A stretch of 64,000 nucleotides of DNA from Carposina sasakii (taxonomy: Eukaryota > Arthropoda > Insecta > Lepidoptera > Carposinidae), in contig CP053170.1 of NCBI GenBank assembly GCA_014607495.2, positions 1,550,001 through 1,614,000 of the forward strand. Reading direction: 5' to 3'. The notes under the pieces are model-generated. The model did not search any database, had not been told where the DNA came from, and was given only the letters and a program-made list of their open reading frames with translations. Positions 14,410-59,487 of this stretch are shown here, in pieces (positions within the stretch are counted from its first letter, which is position 1; each line of letters begins with the position of its first letter). A program made the translations under genes and the position numbers.

Positions 14410-16745
14410 GTTATTTATTTATTTATTACAGCTCTGTGGACAACCAACAGCTTATAAAACAATATGATATATTCTATAGCAACAAAGAAGCCATTACAGG
14501 TTATCACATGTAACAATAACATACGTAGTTTTTAAGAAGTAATAATTTCAATTATTACCTAATAGCAGAACTGCCTTAAAAATCCATGAAAAGAGAACAT
14601 TGACATCGTGTAAATTTATATATGAAGAACAAAAGCTGCGTCAGAGCAACAATACCCGCTGCCCAAACTCACCACTATTGTTCCGAATCAAAGAATTTAC
14701 TGCTTATGTGCCGCCTAACAATCGCCACACTCTTACCGTTAAATAAATTGATATCTAGTTCATACGCCAGCTCATTCAATGCTTTGCTAGCCCTCCAAAG
14801 AAAAGCATTCTGTTGGTAGTTCGTACGAACTCTGGGGAGAGAGATAGGAGGATAATAGCGCCTAGACTTAACTGGTACAGAAAATGAAATTTTTCCCATA
14901 ATTCCATAGAATCAATCGCTCCCGTAGTGATGCCTAATAAGTAGGTTAGATCTGCAATTTGCCGCCTAGATTGAAGTGGCAATAAATGATGTTTCCTACA
15001 TAAGGCCAAGTACTGACTGGAATCGTATGGATACTTGCACCTAAAACAGTGTACTTAATGAACCTACGCTGAATAGCCTCGATTCTGTCTATATAGATGT
15101 CGTACATTGGTTCCATACCTGTGTTGCGTAATTCCAAATTACTCCTGACTAAACTGCAGTAGAGAATTTTAAACGTTTTAATTCTGGAGAAACAAGATGA
15201 GCTGCGAAACACAAACCCAGCGCTCGAGTAGCCTTCTTAATTATGCCATGTATGTGTTTCGTCAAACAGAAGTTTGGAGTCATGTACGACACCCAAATCT
15301 CGGATAGTGGACAATCGTACAAGCAACTGACCTTTAAGGTGGTATGAAGTAGGCAGTAATTCACGCTTACGGCTAAAGGTAACCACAGAGCATTTACTAG
15401 GGTTAAGATCCAACTTATTACGTAGACAATACTCATCCAATCTGTGAAGATCGGTTTGAACATTAATAGCATCCCGTTGGATGCTATTCTGGCTAGATCT
15501 TCATGTCATCAGCAAAACAGAGCAATTTCGTGTATCGAAAACAATTGTAAATATCATTGACAAAAATTGTGAAAATAAGGGGTCCTAGCAATGAGCCTTG
15601 CGGTACTCCACTAGGTATAGGATTCCAACTAGATGCAAAATTATGAACTACTACAGCCTGAGACCTATTACTTATATATGACTCAAACCACCTATACAGA
15701 TCACCTCTTATTCCAGCGTGAAGTATTTTTTTGAGAAGTATTTTATGATCTATCCTATCAAACGCCTTACTATAGTCAGTGTAAATCACATCGACTTGGC
15801 CTCCGCCTCCCATTGAGTTCGACACAAAATCATTAAATAGTACTAGATTAGATACAGTAGACCTCTTACGCATAAAGCCGTGTTGTGTGTCACTAAAAGA
15901 TGTGTGTAGGGCATTATATACTTGGCGATGGATAAATTTCTCCAGAACTTTTGAAAGGACACATAATTTAGAAATAGGTCGATAATGTTCAATAACATTT
16001 CTACTGCCCTTCTTATGAACTGGTGTGATGTAAGCGGCTTTCAAATGGTCGGTACCTTCCCTTCTTTAAGGGACCTTTGAAAAAGAATATATATGGGCAC
16101 AGCAATTGCTTCAGCACATTGAATGAGAAACAATGGCGGCATCTCATCGGGACCGGCTGATTTAGAAGCATCCAGTCTTAGCAGTGTATTACGCAAAGTT
16201 ACTTTATCGAGCTCAACGGATGATATGTCGCAAATAAGTGAGGGTGAAGAGCCGTATGAATCTGAACATTCTGATGAGCACGGATCAGAAGTAGTAGGAT
16301 TTAGGAAATTTGAATTAAAATAGTCAGCAAATGCATTACATATATCCTCTCCCGAACTCACCAAAGCACCACCGTAACTCATCGTGTTCGGAATACTGCT
16401 AGCATTAGAACGAGATTTAATGAAAGACCAAAATCGCTTGGGGCATCGCTCGATGGATTCTTCCGCTTTATCAATAAACTTCTGAAAACATTCAGACTCT
16501 AGTTTTCTTACTCTGTTCCGCTGAAAGATGAAATCATTGTGAGCTGCTTCATTACCATAAACTCTATGCTTCCTGTGATATTTAGATTTTTCCCTAATCG
16601 CCCTCTTGACGGCCGATGAATACCAATTCGGATACGAGTCGGGTCTAACCATTTTGCAAGCAATATATATTTGGTTATGGCTGCCAAATGACCGTGAAGT
16701 GCAGTTTTCGCTGTTTTTACGAGCATTTGACTGTTTTTATACCTT
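14410..16745 (-). pseudogene. 5'-truncated LINE with reverse transcriptase (CR1/jockey-like)
   Basis: Fragments of one ORF2 lie in order on the minus strand. The pre-RT region (16652-16041) has RFWSFIKSR and SAGPDEMPPL. The reverse transcriptase (16044-15493) has YRPISKLCVLSKVLEK, YTDYSKAFDRIDH, SGVPQGSLLGPLIF and FADDMKI, the catalytic box, with F where most LINEs have Y. Then come DLNPSKCSVVTFSRK and a C-terminal stretch reaching ALNELAYELDINLFNG. At least four frameshifts separate the pieces. The endonuclease domain is missing, as expected for 5' truncation, and a ttta-type tail lies at 14410-14430. It is not functional. Confidence 0.88.
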
Positions 16746-41802: not shown

Positions 41803-44800
41803 TAGTCCGGGAGGTAGCGTTGCATTTTACAAAATCATTTCTGGTCGATTGATTAATGTCATAACGTACTTTTCATGGATAGTCATTGAGTAACTCGAAC
41901 GTCAGCAGCTCCAGTAAGGGTGGGGAGAGAATTTCAAGTATGTCAAAAAAAAAAATCCAAAAATTATTTCTGTTCGTCCGAAAATTTGCACATCAGTAGT
42001 TTTAACAATAATAATAATTATAGAAACCGTCAGCTGTGAAGAAAATGGTGGGTTGTACGTCAGCAGGTTATATATACCTATATTAAAAATAATTATTTTC
42101 ATTTCATTTCCGGTCGAATGAAACTGATACAGGTTATTCTTTATGCTATAAAAATGATAAAAAAAAGCGTCAGCAGATCTATCGATAGGGGTAAAATCGT
42201 CAGCAAGGGGATTATATGTGCCGAGCAGGTATTCAATCCGAGTATGCATTAACCATCTATATTATTCAACTGACGACCTTCTCCCTGTCAATTACTCTGC
42301 TGATTCTTTTCTTCATTATATACATTGTTCAAATTATGCTTACGATCAATTTTCAAGCGACCTGAAATCAATTTGATTATAAAAATTCTCATTTTTTAGT
42401 CCAGTCAAATTAGCTACAAAAATAGGGGTAAGGTTACATTAATTCGCACCTTGCTAAAAATTTGCATGAATGTTGGGAACACCATTACATACAATTTGTC
42501 AATTATCCACATCAATCCAATGTGTGGAAAATTTTTTATTGAAGGTCAAATGTTGCAAAAATCGGTTTTTTGAGTTTTCCAGCTAAACGGTAAGTTCTAT
42601 CATGAAAATAGGTGAGACAAAAATTATTCATCATCCAATTATCTACAAAAATTGTTCATACACTTTTTTTCCTAAGAATCGCCATTTCGGAGATATAGCG
42701 ATGCAAAATGTTGAAAAAGTTGTGTTATTCATAATATGCACACGTTTCCGCGCCACCCGTGAGGTAGTGTACATGACGCGTTTTTTTTACGTGGTTTCCC
42801 CGGTAGGCCTATTCCACGATCTATTGTGGTTCTGTTGAGTTAAAAAACTATTTTATTAAATTTAAAATGGTACTATAGTAAATGACAAGAGCGGTGTAAG
42901 TAATGAGTAAATTGAAAAAATTATTCGTCTGATAGATACTCGTTTAATGGAACATAATCCATACTGTCTTGCACTTCTTCTCCTTCTTCTTCTTCTTCTT
43001 CCTGCTGGGTACAAATAAATTGTTCAAAGAGCGATGCATCAGATGTCTCCTCGCCTATATCGTAAGAATCCTCTTCTTCTGGCGATTGAACATTGGAGCA
43101 CGATTGGCCTCGACAACTGATACATGCTAATGAACAAAACAACCCAACTTTTTTACAGCCGCATTTAGCATTACACCCCGTTTTGCAATTGCAAAAAATT
43201 GAATTGAGGAGTTTTTCCGGTGCAGGAGGGAGTAAAGTCTGAACTGGTTCCAATATATTGTCAATTAACTTCCAACCCCAGTCTTCTGGGTTTAGTTTAT
43301 TACCGAGCCATACTTGAACTTGATAATATACCCGAAATAGATGTTGATAAGCAGAAGCAGAGGTTGGAGGAAGACAAGCTAATTGTACTTGTTTTTTTTT
43401 ATGCGTATTTTTTGCAAAAGATAAGTATCGAAACTTATCTAAGCACGTAATTTTTTTTGGAGCTCCGTAAACGGAAAGAAGAAAGCGAATTCCGTTGGTG
43501 ATTACAGCTTGTGGAGTAGAGGTACTTTCTTTGAAAACGTCAGCACAATCAACTAAATCTTGTCTCTCAAACAATTTCAAAACAGATTTTTTACCTCTCC
43601 TAAAAATGCTGATGTCGTGTCGCAACCAGTTACTGCATGTAGAAATAAGATATGATTTTGGCATTTTGAAAAAGCAGATAAACTCTTGGATGAATATATT
43701 TTTGATTGTTGTTCAGCTTTCCCAGGTTTTAAAAAATAAATAATGTATCAGTTGTCGAGGCCAATCGTGCTCCAATGTTCAATCGCCAGAAGAAGAGGAT
43801 TCTTACGATATAGGCGAGGAGACATCTGATGCATCGCTCTTTGAACAATTTATTTGTACCCAGCAGGAAGAAGAAGAAGAAGAAGGAGAAGAAGTGCAAG
43901 ACAGTATGGATTATGTTCCATTAAACGAGTATCTATCAGACGAATAATTTTTTCAATTTACTCATTACTTACACCGCTCTTGTCATTTACTATAGTACCA
44001 TTTTAAATTTAATAAAATAGTTTTTTAACTCAACAGAACCACAATAGATCGTGGAATAGGCCTACCGGGGAAACCACGTAAAAAAAACGCGTCATGTACA
44101 CTACCTCACGGGTGGCGCGGAAACGTGTGCATATTATGAATAACACAACTTTTTCAACATTTTGCATCGCTATATCTCCGAAATGGCGATTCTTAGGAAA
44201 AAAAGTGTATGAACAATTTTTGTAGATAATTGGATGATGAATAATTTTTGTCTCACCTATTTTCATGATAGAACTTACCGTTTAGCTGGAAAACTCAAAA
44301 AACCGATTTTTGCAACATTTGACCTTCAATAAAAAATTTTCCACACATTGGATTGATGTGGATAATTGACAAATTGTATGTAATGGTGTTCCCAACATTC
44401 ATGCAAATTTTTAGCAAGGTGCGAATTAATGTAACCTTACCCCTATTTTTGTAGCTAATTTGACTGGACTAAAAAATGAGAATTTTTATAATCAAATTGA
44501 TTTCAGGTCGCTTGAAAATTGATCGTAAGCATAATTTGAACAATGTATATAATGAAGAAAAGAATCAGCAGAGTAATTGACAGGGAGAAGGTCGTCAGTT
44601 GAATAATATAGATGGTTAATGCATACTCGGATTGAATACCTGCTCGGCACATATAATCCCCTTGCTGACGATTTTACCCCTATCGATAGATCTGCTGACG
44701 CTTTTTTTTATCATTTTTATAGCATAAAGAATAACCTGTATCAGTTTCATTCGACCGGAAATGAAATGAAAATAATTATTTTTAATATAGGTATATATAA

Positions 44801-51920: not shown

Positions 51921-52023
51921 TGTGATGTATGCGGGTAGGTAGCCTACCCGCGTGGAGATTAATAAAAAGTCAGTCTCGAAATAACTGGTTGTTTAATTTG
52001 TACATCTCTGCATATTTATCACA
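51921..52023 (+). repeat. 5' LTR
   Basis: 103 bp, tgtgatgtatgcgggtagg ... tgcatatttatcaca; identical to the 3' copy. It contains a short inner palindrome gcgggtaggtagcctacccgc (near perfect). Confidence 0.92.
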
Positions 52024-52035
52024 TTGGCGACGAGG

Positions 52036-53526
52036 ATGGGATCCAAAACCAATTTTAAGGAGTTTGATGTACAAACGGGAAAGTGGGCCACCTATATTAT
52101 ACAGTTACGAGCGTGGTTTGACGTAAATGGAGTTGCACCAGACAAATACGCTAAGTATCTCGTGGCGGTCGTCGGGTCGGACATTTTGGATTTAATTATC
52201 GACTTGTGTTATCCAGAATTACCAGAATCTGTGCCGTTCCAAGAGATTGTAGACAAAATTCAAGCTCATTTGTCTCCCAAGAGGTCAGAGGTCGCGGAGC
52301 GTATAGTTTTTCGTAGCTGCAAGCAGGAAGCGGGGCAGTCGCTCAACGATTACTTGGCAAAATTACGTCGACTCGCAAAGGAATGCAACTTCACCAAACC
52401 GGAGTACTTGGAGGAAAACCTACGTGATCAGTTAGTGTACGGCTTACGCAGTGATACCATCAGATTCCGTCTGATGGCTGAAGAGAAGCTGACACTCGAC
52501 CGTGCGACAAGGCTGGCGTTGTCGCTGGAGGCGGCTGAACGAGACTCGCGAGCCAGCAACGTGGTGGTGGCGTTAGGCGGCGAGAACGTGCACGCGGTGC
52601 GCGCCGGCCCGGCCACGTCCACCTCGTGGGCCTGGGGCGCCGGCGGCGGCGGTAGCGGCGGCGCGCAAGCTCCGCACTCCAGGCGGGCCGGGCAGCGGCG
52701 TCCGGGGGCAACGCGTTGGTTGCCGTGTGGTAGATGCGCGCGCACCCATCAACCAGGAAAGTGCAGTTTTGCAAACTCAGTGTGTTACGTATGCTCTCAA
52801 ATAGGGCATATCGCCAAAGTGTGTAAAATGCGTCGGCAAGTAAACAACGTCGAAGTTGATCAGTATTGTTACCGTGATGACAATAATACCCATTACAGTG
52901 ATGATTGCGATGATGACGTGCCGATATACGTCATCCAGGGCGATGGTGCGGATAACCGCCCCTGGTATAGGGATGTGATAATTAACGGGGCGAAGTTGAA
53001 AATGCAGTTAGACAGCGGATCTGCGGTGAGTGCTATCCCAGTGACCACATATAGAAAATGCTTTTCACATATTGACATTATACCTACATCAATAAAATTG
53101 CGTATGTTTAGTGGACAAAGTGTGCAACCGTTAGGTACAATTAAATGTTCCGTGTCATATAGGGATAAAATTGTAAATAATTTAGAGTTATTTGTAGTGA
53201 GCACGAAAGATAGCCCGGCATTGTTAGGTAGGCGGTGGATGACAGCGTTAGGCATAGAATGTACCCAAACAGATGCTATACCTACAATGTCGGTATCGGC
53301 GGTGCGCGCCAGCGCAGTTTGCACCGCAGCCGGGGTCAAGGACCGCGGGTTACGTCATAAGGAGGTGCTCGAACAACTTCAAGGTACGTACCCTAATGTT
53401 TTTTCCGCGAGTGAAGCTGACCTGGCGCCGCCGTCGCCGGTATCGATACCCACCACTAGTAATGTTATGGTAAATGCTAGGCCTAAACGCGATCGTCGTC
53501 CACCCCTTCGTTTTGTCATAGATTAA
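52036..53526 (+). CDS. Gag-protease ORF with fused integrase tail (496 aa)
   Basis: The start is the first ATG after the primer-binding site. Residues 1 to about 175 are a retrotransposon gag (capsid) domain (IVDKIQAHLSPKRSEVAERI, GQSLNDYLAKLRRLAKEC). A low-complexity Gly/Ala/Arg linker follows, then two zinc knuckles: CGRCARTHQPGKC and CYVCSQIGHIAKVC from about residue 250. The aspartic protease has its active site LDSGS near residue 326 and ends ALLGRRW. The frame then passes VLEQLQGTYPNVFS, normally the run-in to reverse transcriptase, straight into an NARPKRDRRPPLRFVID end typical of integrase C-termini. The pol core between is deleted in frame. Confidence 0.9.
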   Translation: MGSKTNFKEFDVQTGKWATYIIQLRAWFDVNGVAPDKYAKYLVAVVGSDILDLIIDLCYPELPESVPFQEIVDKIQAHLSPKRSEVAERIVFRSCKQEAGQSLNDYLAKLRRLAKECNFTKPEYLEENLRDQLVYGLRSDTIRFRLMAEEKLTLDRATRLALSLEAAERDSRASNVVVALGGENVHAVRAGPATSTSWAWGAGGGGSGGAQAPHSRRAGQRRPGATRWLPCGRCARTHQPGKCSFANSVCYVCSQIGHIAKVCKMRRQVNNVEVDQYCYRDDNNTHYSDDCDDDVPIYVIQGDGADNRPWYRDVIINGAKLKMQLDSGSAVSAIPVTTYRKCFSHIDIIPTSIKLRMFSGQSVQPLGTIKCSVSYRDKIVNNLELFVVSTKDSPALLGRRWMTALGIECTQTDAIPTMSVSAVRASAVCTAAGVKDRGLRHKEVLEQLQGTYPNVFSASEADLAPPSPVSIPTTSNVMVNARPKRDRRPPLRFVID

Positions 53527-55294: not shown

Positions 55295-55433
55295 TATTAA
55301 TACACATCTCGGGCATTCCCTCAGGCGATAAGGTAGCAACTTGTCACTGATCATTTACATCTGTGCCCGCTGTGCGAAACGTGGGTTCTCATTTATGATC
55401 CTGTAGTTCTTGCCCCCATTTCGGGGAACACAG

Positions 55434-55440
<7 letters not shown>
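55295..55440 (-). repeat. Dispersed repeat L copy
   Basis: 'cgggcattccctcaggcgataa', 'catttacatctgtgcccgc', 'cctgtagttcttgcccc' and 'ggaacacagccgtgtg'. Confidence 0.65.

Positions 55441-55497
<57 letters not shown>
55437..55497. repeat. (GT)n microsatellite
   Basis: About 30 GT units; the open frames across it are artefacts. Confidence 0.97.
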
Positions 55498-55501
<4 letters not shown>

Positions 55502-55502
55502 A

Positions 55503-55603
55503 TACGTGGACGCCTGCGACTCCGTCCGCGTGGACTGCAGAAAAATCAAAATGTCAAAATTATCCGGGATAAAAAAATATTTTCCTGGGATGAATTGTAG
55601 CCT
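55503..55603 (-). mobile_element. Helitron-like 3' part, cut by the next element
   Basis: Minus strand 'ggctacaattcatccc', 'tttttatcccggataatttt' and 'gcgtccac'. The other Helitron end (tcctactaat) appears just beyond 59084 on the minus strand, so the next element probably landed inside this Helitron. Confidence 0.55.
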
Positions 55604-58600
55604 ATGGCTCATTCCGCAGTAATCAATACCAAAATGTAAAAAACAAAAGTTTTAAATAATTATACTAAAATAGAAAATTAACAAACATAATATTTTTAAC
55701 TTTTATAATTCGACAGAAATTTGTGCATATTTACGCTTATTTTCGTAATATTTTGATTTACACTGAGAGAGATCCAGAGTTAGTGTAGTGGTAATAATAA
55801 TAATTAAATGACAACACTGTTTTTCACGTCATTGACATTGACAGCGCGCCATTTTCATTTGCTCTGGATGAAGCAATTCATTGTTATTTATTGTGAAAAA
55901 ATTGGAATTAATGGGGTAAGTAGTAATCATTTTATTGATATTTTCTTACCGTAAGTATTTATGAAACGCCCGTCACAAAATACATAGAAAAGTTAATCCT
56001 ATCTGAGCTATACGAACTTTTATACTGTGTTGCTCTTACGAAAGTAAGGTTATGTTATCAAATAATGTTTGTAAAGTATTTTTATATTTTAGAAAACACT
56101 TCGCTTTTAGATATAAGTTAAGTTAAGTGTGTAGCACCCGTCACACGTAACACCCGTCACAATTTTTTTCACAAATATTTATATCATTTTTGTACATATT
56201 AAATATTCAGCAGTTGACATAATTATGTCCTCTCTGTGTGTGTTGTAAATCTTGCTATAATAATGCATTATTTTATCATGAAATGTATTTGGAATGTTTG
56301 TATGGCTTAGCTTTCTATAACTTATTTTCGCAGTATGGATGCAGCTACAAGGAAGAGAAAGAGTCGAGAAAATTTTAAAAATGACCCAGAAAAATTTCGA
56401 AAACACTTAGAAAAAGAAAAAGAGAGGGACAAGAAAAGAAGACAGAAAAAGAGGGCAGAGTTGTTAAAAAATAAAAGAAAACTAGAAGCAGAAAGACTGG
56501 CAATCAGAAATAGGGTTCAAAAACATAGAAATAAAAATAAAATAAATAATCCATTGCTTGAAAATGGTGTTAAGATGTCTCCTTTAGGGACATATAAATG
56601 CAAACAAACGCTAAGGAAGGCAGTTAGCAAAGTTAAAAAATGCCTGCCTGAAAGCCCAACAAAACAACAAGCAGTGGTTTTGGAGTTGGCAAAGGAAACA
56701 TTGCCAAATTGTCTCCTCAATAAAGACAATATTTCAAAACCTAAGAGATCCGATTCATTGTCTAATGATGACATTAAAAAAGTTGAGTCTTTTTATAATA
56801 GTGATGATATCAGCCGACAATCTCCTAACCGCAAAGACGTTATCCGTATAAAAAATAAAGATGGCGTAGAACAGTCGAATCCTAAAAGGCACTTGATAAT
56901 GACTGTATCAGAGGCATTCATGTTATTTACAGAAAAGTATCCTGAAATTAAAATATACAGAACTAAGTTCTTCGAACTTAGACCATTACATGTTCGACCA
57001 ATATCAGAGACACCCCACAATGTCTGTGTATGCATTTATCATGCAAATTTCAGTTTTCTCGTGGACAGCATAAAATAAATCCTATATTCCATCAACACTC
57101 CATCAGATTTATTAAAAGAGATATGCTGCGATATCGATAATGAAGACTGTATGACCGAAAGATGCACAAATTGTAATCAGACTTTCGGATCTAATTCCAT
57201 TAAATTCTAATTTAAAAGTTGTCACAAAATGGAAACAATGGGAAAAGGCAAGTGATGGTTGGTTACAAATTCAAGAATTCACAGACTCCAGAGAAGAATT
57301 ATTGAAAAAAATGCAGGACCAAATCTCTAAATTCAAAATTCACTGTTTCGTAAAGAACAGACAGGCGAAATTCTTTGAACAAAAGAAGCTAGATACTACA
57401 GAAGAGAATTTTGTCATTCAAATTGACTTTGCTGAAAACTTTACCATAATTTCACAGGACGAAATACAGAGTGCGCATTGGCGCCACCCTCAAGCTACAA
57501 TATTTACGTGCTGTGTTTGGATGCAGAAAAGTCAAAAAATTGTCAGCTATGTTATAGTGAGCAACTCTGTAACACACAATAAAATATCAGCATGCTTATT
57601 TTTAAAAACTATTATCAAAGATTTGAAATCACAATTTCCCCACGTAAAAAAGCTGACAATTTTTTCAGACGGATGCGCAGCGCAATTCAAGAATAGGTTC
57701 ACAATATCCAGTGTATATTATAGTGAAGAAGACTGGGGCGTCAAAGTAGAGTGGGCTTTTTTTGCTACTAGCCATGGAAAAGGCGCTGTTGACGGTTTGG
57801 GCGCAACTGCGAAAGGCAGACTTTGGCGGGCAATAAAGTCTCGGAAGGCGTATATAAACTCAGCCTGGGAATGCTATGAGTACTTATCTGCTGATCCAAA
57901 AGGCGTTAAATATCATTTCGTCAGTGAAATCGACATCCTTGAGCTTGAGGAAGAGCTAATGAAAAGATGGGAAAACTTGAAGATGCTACCTCAACTTCAA
58001 AAACAACACTATTTCAGTTACTCAGGAGGAAACTACATTTCGTATAGTCTTACAGGCAATTCAAGCACCCAAAAATCCCTTTTATTTAAAGATAAAATTG
58101 CGTACGAAGACGTATACTCAGAATCGGAAAGTGACACAAAAAAAGGGACTTTAATCAGAAAAAATAGAGAGACAGAATGTGTTAAAAAAAATAAAGAAGA
58201 AGGACTTAGAGAAAGGTCAGATGAAAATGAACAAGAGCCAGAATCCAGCGGACTGTCTGGACAGCATTATGGAAGTGGCGATTATATTTTGGTGAAATTT
58301 GATAACATAAGAGTACAATATCGATATGCAGGTATTATCAATAAAATTGATGATGACGAGGGTGAGGTAACAGTGACATTTTTGAAAATGTTAGATAAGT
58401 CAGGTTGTCTATTTAAAGTAGATGATGATGACGTGTCAGACGTGACTTATGAACAAATTATAAAAAAGTTGCCAATTCCCACTCTAGTCACAAAAGGAAA
58501 CAGATTTTGTTACAAATTTGCCTTGCCAGTTGATGTATATGAAAAGTGATTTGTTACTCTTTCTTGTCTGTTTTAGCTCGTAGTCATAACCAAAACCCAG

Positions 58601-59084
58601 GTTAATTATTATTTCTATTATTATAATATTAATAAAGTCCCAAAATGTACTTATGTTTTTATTTCATATGCACTCGTAACACCCGTCACAAATCTTGTAA
58701 CACCCGTCACAACATTCTATTGTTAATTTAGGACATTTACTGACAATAAATCCCTAATAAGTTATTGTGATAAGAAAGAAAGAATTGTTAACTCATTTCT
58801 TTGGTATATATTGTGTGAGCAAAATCTCTAATTTAGCTAATTTTTGATGATTGGTAGAGAAGATAGCATATTCTACAAGAGTACTCGAAACACCCGTCAC
58901 AGGGATTAAATCTATGATTGCATTTAAACCATATTAATGTTATTAAAGTATTTTGATTTATATTCTATAACTGATTGAAATACATAATATTCTTCATAAA
59001 ATGCAAAGGTATTTGTTCTAATATAGAAATTATAACAGTTTGAATGAGTACAAATGTAACACCCGTCACTGCGGAATGAGCCAT
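55604..59084 (+). mobile_element. 3.48-kb DNA transposon, superfamily not recognised
   Basis: Exact 17-bp terminal inverted repeats (atggctcattccgcagt, 55604-55620 and inverse 59068-59084). Flanks allow AT or TA as target duplication, but this is ambiguous because of the flanking bases. Seven (a)acacccgtcac-type motifs lie at 55965, 56133, 56149, 58678, 58699, 58889 and 59058, all in the plus direction, the last touching the right terminal repeat. One transposase gene occupies the middle. Confidence 0.8.
56335..58549 (+). pseudogene. DDE/D-like transposase of unplaced family (stop and frameshift)
   Basis: The first frame begins MDAATRKRKSRENF with a long Lys/Arg/Glu-rich coiled stretch (residues about 1-70), then TVSEAFMLFTEKYPEIKIYR, KFFELRPLHV and PHNVCVCIYH. 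A TAA at 57076-57078 interrupts, after which the same frame goes on to ICCDIDNEDCMTERCTNC, a Cys-rich block. Near 57185 a shift moves to the next frame, open from about 57182 to 58549. That frame carries FVIQIDFAENF, LTIFSDGCAAQFKNRF and ATSHGKGAVDGLGATAKG, a spacing and context that suggest an RNase-H-fold D-D-(D/E) core. The C-terminus GSGDYILVKFDNIR...YRYAGIINKI looks like an SH3/Tudor-like barrel. I recall similar unnamed proteins from arthropods; the activity is inferred. Confidence 0.75.
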
Positions 59085-59099
59085 TAGTAGGATAGGATG

Positions 59100-59225
59100 T
59101 ATGTCACCAACCCGCCTGCCCAGCGTGGTGACTATGGGCAAAACCCCGCTGTGGCAGTAGCCTTGTGGCGTGCCCTGGGGGGGTCCTACGTCCAGCAGTG
59201 GACTGCAATAGGCTGAAGAATAAAA
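59100..59225 (-). repeat. SINE family E 3' part
   Basis: 'caacccgcctgcccagcgtgg' through 'caataggctgaagaa'. Confidence 0.7.
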
Positions 59226-59487
59226 AGGATTTTTGTCGGTACGTACACATCTCATACAATTTAATTATAGCCACGGCAATAACTATGTGTAATTCATGAA
59301 ATTATTTGACCCAACTCATAAAGATGGCAGCAAATATAAGGATCATAAAAACAAGGACAATGAGATCACTCTAGGGAGATCAAATAGGACGGCCTAGACC
59401 TGTGTAGGTACTTCATTAAACTATGAGATTGCTGCACTTTTGATTTTGGGTCATTAGGTGATTATTTCGGTCATGGCGGCCAATATC

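Follow-up and report, generated by a model that had tools for sequence, protein, structure and literature searches.

The 64,000-nucleotide stretch of the Carposina sasakii genome analyzed here (contig CP053170.1, positions 1,550,001 to 1,614,000; hereafter the window) carries, between its positions 55606 and 59082, a broken copy of what is probably a young cut-and-paste transposon, Sola-like and with a transposase of the three-aspartate (DDD) type that would read phased sites located inside the element ends. The ends, the target duplications and the near identity of its copies establish that this element was mobile in the recent past. The unexpected result is the spacing of the subterminal sites, which is shared by elements in which the sites themselves change.

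Copies of the element and its boundaries

The 399-Mb host assembly (31 contigs) was searched for further copies, a check proposed by an earlier interpretation of the window (hereafter the sequence-only reading). All 15 candidates were scored and 13 copies were fetched besides that of the window, the genome thus containing at least 14 near-identical copies, window copy included. An exact 4-bp target duplication borders 11 of these 14 copies (ATAT three times, ATTG twice, and CATT, AGTG, CAAT, TGCA, TAAT and ATAA). Ten of the 13 sister copies are 3476-3482 bp long, the other three (L019, L021 and L022) being interrupted by inserts and left out of the copy comparison. The 11 uninterrupted copies differ from each other by 0.17% on average, and their open frames have 739 aa (three copies), 737 aa (two copies) or less (six copies). 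Short non-autonomous derivatives were not seen, a search with the 3' end giving 16 pieces which all come from the 14 copies. Two copies, L015 and L018 (G000 contig C28, ~8.87 and 9.08 Mb), lie in opposite orientation and their flanks are nearly identical. They probably go back to a single insertion that was copied together with the DNA around it, and point to a duplication of a host segment ~0.2 Mb away.

The limits of the window copy derive from this comparison:

55606..59082, + strand: whole transposon copy, 3477 bp, from GG to CC, limited where sister-copy homology ends
55606..55620, + strand: left terminal inverted repeat (TIR) GGCTCATTCCGCAGT, 15 bp, perfect
59068..59082, - strand: right TIR, 15 bp, perfect
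55602..55605, no strand: left flank CTAT, 4 bp, unlike the right flank
59083..59086, no strand: right flank ATTA, 4 bp

The sequence ATGGCTCATTCCGCAGT at 55604-55620 has its exact complement at 59068-59084, and these are its only two matches in the 64 kb with up to three mismatches (0.12 expected). The sequence-only reading had taken these 17-bp arms as the terminal repeats; they are indeed exact, and overshoot the element by 2 bp at either end. Since the homology of the sister copies stops at GGCTCATTCC..GGAATGAGCC, the element corresponds to 55606-59082, and its termini proper, set by the 13 other genomic copies, are GGCTCATTCCGCAGT..ACTGCGGAATGAGCC (15 bp), the outer 2 bp of each arm being target DNA that is self-complementary by chance. 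The same reading would have been put in question by copies not ending at 55604 and 59084, and they depart from these positions only in a trivial way, by ending 2 bp inside. It had thus recognized a genuine transposon and given a good account of its protein, with ends 2 bp off.

The lack of a target duplication, a reading that came from the window copy and one distant relative (L001, see below) alone, is overturned by the sister copies. The segments adjoining the window copy (55300-55603 and 59085-59484) are pieces of repeats that recur several times in the window. Past the element, the right flank belongs to a repeat other than that of the left flank, which indicates that the site of the window copy is rearranged or composite, and which prevented the reconstruction of an empty site from the window repeats.

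The transposase, its relatives and superfamily placement

Intact sister copies encode a single transposase of 737-739 aa, whose counterparts in the window copy are the following:

56335..57078, + strand: transposase piece 1, with the ATG, the basic coiled N-terminus and the start of the Cys/His block; premature stop at 57076-57078
57079..57192, + strand: transposase, same frame past the stop, Cys block CCDIDNEDCMTERCTNC; frame lost near 57182
57155..58549, + strand: transposase, shifted frame, RNase-H-like core and C-terminal beta domain
57425..57427, + strand: predicted catalytic Asp 1 (QIDFAEN), invariant, in the first core strand of the models
57668..57670, + strand: predicted catalytic Asp 2 (FSDGCAAQFKN), invariant, at the end of a core strand in the models
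57791..57793, + strand: predicted catalytic Asp 3 (HGKGAVDG), invariant, near a helix start in the models

The stop codon at 57076-57078 differs by its first base from the majority of ten sister copies, and relative to these the window copy has a 5-bp gap at ~57182. Owing to these two lesions the window copy is broken and its protein signatures are split over three pieces. The sequence-only reading had assigned all of them to one protein: QIDFAENF, FSDGCAAQFKN, HGKGAVDG and the C-terminal stretch are effectively in the 57155-58549 frame, the Cys-rich block CCDIDNEDCMTERCTNC is present in another frame (57079-57192), and the basic coiled N-terminus in a separate open frame (56311-57078). The Cys/His block probably holds zinc.

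The three Asp (D366, D447 and D488 in the numbering of the intact copy L010) do not vary in any of 70 aligned rows, nor among 14 diverse rows. The models and the structural alignment rows agree on an RNase-H-like core, on which this D-D-D triad forms the predicted catalytic residues, in line with the DDE/D-type transposon initially proposed. The best 50 VIA-align rows include integrases, Mos1/SETMAR and IstA. Two Foldseek runs against the PDB gave one and zero rows at E <= 0.001, the viral fold library gave nothing at this threshold, and the PDB sequence search returned two and three rows, none meaningful (E 0.43 to 8). For the C-terminal beta domain, described earlier as an SH3/Tudor-like end, the best chromo-barrel and Tudor-type matches (Foldseek E ~0.07-0.15) give weak support to this description and to a weak resemblance of the modelled domain with chromatin readers.

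The family is large and widespread, in line with the frequency in arthropods supposed by the sequence-only reading: 497 proteins have E <= 0.001 to the window piece, with relatives in many insects and other animals, and among the rows listed with a name nearly all are called unnamed, hypothetical or uncharacterized. In some relatives (P0158, P0163, P0164 and P0176) the core is followed, in frame, by a cysteine protease domain of Ulp1 (Peptidase_C48) or OTU type. Pfam profiles agree with the failure to recognize a known family by eye, the window fragments matching no Pfam family at E <= 10, and neither these fragments nor five relatives from the same genome matching a Pfam or NCBIfam family at E <= 0.01. 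Among 67 aligned relatives, ten match DUF7869 (Pfam PF25273) at E <= 0.001 (best 1.5e-5) and no other family is reached; the window protein itself is unmatched. In relatives viewed individually, the DUF7869 match covers the stretch around the second and third Asp, and it scores below the Pfam gathering cut-off in all five relatives scored one by one. DUF7869 was not found in the literature searched.

A search of the host genome with one relative (P0022) gave 79 matches, pieces of one copy being counted apart, and 58 of 453 candidates were scored. Besides the window element (family A), six further families (B, M, H, N, I and K) were delimited in this genome, and one element elsewhere (L001, or X); families D, E and F were not delimited and several other groups among the 79 matches are outside the set. 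L001 was the sole related locus in genome contigs outside the host, and viral contigs gave none by protein scans and a DNA pattern scan. It is an intact-looking animal-type element with its own TIR and site motif, in a contig filed under a bacterial metagenome-assembled genome and therein probably a contamination. The window element and L001 (29% protein identity) form one clade with family B (28-33% among the three). Identity among all families except K is 20-38%, and K has 35% identity with M.

All the delimited families start with GG or GGG, and 4-bp duplications are found in the six host families besides the window element. They are exact in the six copies of family B with both ends in hand (out of nine copies) and in both copies of N, M and H, families I and K being represented by one copy each; family I (L055, L063) measures 4663 bp, its TIR being at least 34 bp long and its duplication TTAA. 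The flank match helped to pick the ends of M, H, I and K, and in M and N the homology between two copies halts at the same bases, within 1. The list holds 24 exact duplications from seven families; L018 is left aside because it repeats the site of L015, and the inexact flanks of L011, L017, the window copy and L001 are not counted. They are 78% A+T, with A-T-A-T as the commonest letters and no strict pattern.

Several superfamilies do not fit these characteristics. The TTAA of piggyBac and Kolobok is found in none of the ten distinct duplications of the window element and in one of 24 over the seven families, and the TA duplication needed for Tc1/mariner contrasts with the 4 bp found here. hAT elements duplicate 8 bp, and no exact flank match longer than 4 bp exists in 12 copies with both ends (lengths 1-12 tried). 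PIF/Harbinger is described with 3-bp duplications in the cited passage (PMC2213677), as opposed to 4 bp in 11 of 14 copies here. Ginger1, with 4-bp duplications and an integrase-like transposase, was rejected for lack of a Gypsy-type integrase Pfam match, the 67 relatives reaching DUF7869 alone at E <= 0.001.

By contrast, the available passages on Sola describe a DDD transposase, 4-bp duplications and TIRs of 11-1124 bp (PMC10741241), and for Sola2 AT-rich 4-bp duplications (AWWT in Dictyostelium fasciculatum) and TIRs of 12-21 bp (PMC3627910). All the Sola marks that can be checked are present in our element: a D-D-D triad, invariant in the 14 rows and placed on a modelled fold, a 4-bp duplication, in 11 of 14 copies and in six further families, and a perfect TIR of 15 bp. 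The likeness, as far as these passages go, extends to a size of a few kb and an occurrence in animals. The agreement of the triad, the 4-bp duplications (AT-rich, though of no strict pattern) and the TIR leads us to place the element provisionally with Sola, as most like Sola2, on a comparison of features and not of transposase sequences; Sola membership is assigned in one cited passage by PSI-BLAST homology to Sola1, Sola2 and Sola3 transposases (PMC4455052).

Alternatively, the element could be the type of a superfamily distinct from Sola, its transposase, DUF7869-like in the core, not grouping with Sola1-3 and the triad and 4-bp duplications being acquired by convergence. The absence of Pfam and NCBIfam matches, the uninformative names of the relatives and DUF7869 as only Pfam link speak for it. 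We consider it rather unlikely, given the presence of all the checkable Sola marks (PMC10741241) and, as a looser likeness, an A-T-A-T preference beside the AWWT of one Sola2 group (PMC3627910), to the extent covered by these passages. The sequence-only reading, which did not consider Sola, thus most likely missed a named superfamily; its candidate for a poorly described superfamily is in doubt and its interpretation is only partly supported.

Subterminal sites and their spacing

Direct repeats of CACCCGTCAC occur seven times in the element and nowhere else in the window (up to one mismatch; 0.63 expected); the sequence-only reading does not mention them. Distances are given from site starts to the element end:

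55964..55976, + strand: subterminal site 1 (TAACACCCGTCAC-like), 359 bp from the left end
56132..56144, + strand: subterminal site 2, 527 bp from the left end
56148..56160, + strand: subterminal site 3, 543 bp from the left end, pairs with site 2
58677..58689, + strand: subterminal site 4, 406 bp from the right end, pairs with site 5
58698..58710, + strand: subterminal site 5, 385 bp from the right end
58888..58900, + strand: subterminal site 6, 195 bp from the right end
59057..59069, + strand: subterminal site 7, 26 bp from the right end, overlaps the inner edge of the right TIR

All seven TAACACCCGTCAC copies of the window element are on one strand, two of nine pattern matches being shifted readings beside true sites and left uncounted. 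L001 has GTACGTCCAACAC at 365, 542 and 556 bp from its left end and at 404, 383, 195 and 26 bp from its right end, plus one inverted copy (7 of 8 on one strand), and family B has TAGTGTCAGTCA at 361, 529, 546 and 567 bp (left) and 415, 391, 204 and 27 bp (right), all eight on one strand. The sites are therefore family-specific, their motif differing among the window element, L001 and B while the distances from the ends are nearly equal. Set against 100 Markov controls, the best 10-mer family comes out above every one of them in A, X, B, M, H and N; in K it reaches 6, against 5 for the best control. At least one site pair 16-24 bp apart is present in all of these seven families.

The 31 site clusters of six families fit a period of 186 bp (mean resultant 0.85). 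The period is 189 bp for A, M, H and N alone (0.86) and 192 bp for M, H and N (0.89), and in each of the three fits none of 4000 random placements reaches the observed value. Three mid-element matches of H were left out of the fit, and the inverted site of X at 520 was merged with its neighbors. Family K, delimited and analyzed after the fit, has clusters at 0.97, 3.01, 4.03 and 1.04 steps, a regularity equaled by 5 of 200000 random sets. No paper was recognized, from titles and abstract starts, as describing such a ladder, the Sola passages cited above do not mention one, and the motif strings were not found in the literature searched.

This spacing could have been inherited without selection from one ancestor, with few indels and drifting motifs. 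The close agreement within a single clade (A, X and B) and the layout versions proper to M, H, N and K would fit such a history, which remains unlikely for three reasons: noncoding DNA of A gives no collinear alignment with that of B or X, the best one having E 0.015 and being out of register, so that indels should have accumulated; motif copies stay alike within one element, which implies selection or conversion; and both groups fit one period though their positions differ. A regulatory role of the sites, in the promoter or at the 3' end of the transposase gene or in self-silencing, agrees with their presence on both sides of the gene and with their nearly uniform orientation to transcription in the window clade, and is less probable still: the last site, beyond the gene, touches the right TIR or overlaps it and is 25-27 bp from the end in three families, and the variation of motifs among A, B, M, H, N and K in one host points to an element-encoded reader.

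Several observations weigh against our overall reading of a Sola-like transposon with phased sites. The window copy has no intact 4-bp duplication (CTAT vs ATTA), the flanks of L011 and L017 match imperfectly, those of L001 (AAAT/TTCT) do not match, and L001 is the sole element from outside the host genome; in H, the homology between copies extends 17-18 bp beyond one end. The best Foldseek row against the PDB, a weak one, is the nuclease domain of a herpesvirus terminase (E 5.6e-4 and 1.1e-3). Regarding the sites, family I has no repeated motif (98 of 100 controls reach the same score), the motif of H is the weakest (14 matches with up to two mismatches, 2.5 expected, three of them mid-element), and M, H, N and K have other motifs on mixed strands, uniform orientation being restricted to the window clade. 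As to the ladder, site clusters are author-defined, neighbors within ~60 bp having been merged by hand, those of K were drawn with the ladder known, which weakens its figure, and the right-end sites closest to the tip in N and K are scattered over 173-254 bp.

A possible mode of action and comparison with other transposons

The reading of the element as a Sola-like transposon with phased sites, probable as a whole, includes the following mechanism. The difference of motifs between families within one host suggests that each transposase reads its own motif, and would thus bind its own putative subterminal sites. These lie at ~0, 1, 2, 3 and 4 times 190 bp from the ends, single or paired ~20 bp apart, and steps of ~190 bp suggest a binding between nucleosomes; such a spacing may allow several transposase molecules to bind ends wrapped in phased nucleosomes. 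The 15-bp TIRs, presumed to hold the cleavage points, would then be brought together and cut at GG/CC, and the released element inserted, with a stagger of 4 bp, into AT-rich target DNA.

A more specific proposal, which we put forward tentatively and rate as possible but doubtful, is that the ends are built for chromatin, with about one nucleosome repeat (186-192 bp) separating the putative transposase sites from each other and from the element tips. Helped by a C-terminus that resembles chromatin readers, the transposase would assemble on linker DNA between phased nucleosomes and synapse the still-wrapped ends, the motif varying from family to family and the ladder remaining constant. If true, this would be a case of transposon-end geometry fitted to nucleosomes.

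Independently of this proposal, the 497 animal proteins (E <= 0.001) can be recorded as probable DDD transposases, and hence masked, named and tested. A large unnamed protein set is now provided with intact, recently moving elements whose ends and duplications are known, and the five copies with an open frame mean that excision and integration could be assayed directly.

Elsewhere in the window, a frame of 509 aa (51997-53526, + strand) resembles, by eye, the gag of a retroelement, including a CCHC knuckle and an aspartic protease, two overlapping frames (15493-16736, - strand) resemble, also by eye, a reverse transcriptase of non-LTR (long terminal repeat) type, and an open frame of 263 aa (42921-43712, - strand) has a Cys-rich tail (CNCKTGCNAKCGCKKVGLFCSLACISC).

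Compared with known systems, retroviral integrases have 8-15% identity in the VIA-align rows and other outer domains. The third catalytic residue is Glu in integrases and Asp in Mos1; in the present family it is Asp, unlike in integrases, and the family differs from the Mos1 mariner by its outer domains and by a 4-bp duplication instead of TA. In Tn7, Mu and the P element, each end contains several sites for the transposase, at distances from the tip that are fixed and unequal. The elements described here resemble them by several candidate sites so arranged, and differ from them by a layout common to families with differing motifs and by a spacing near the nucleosome repeat.
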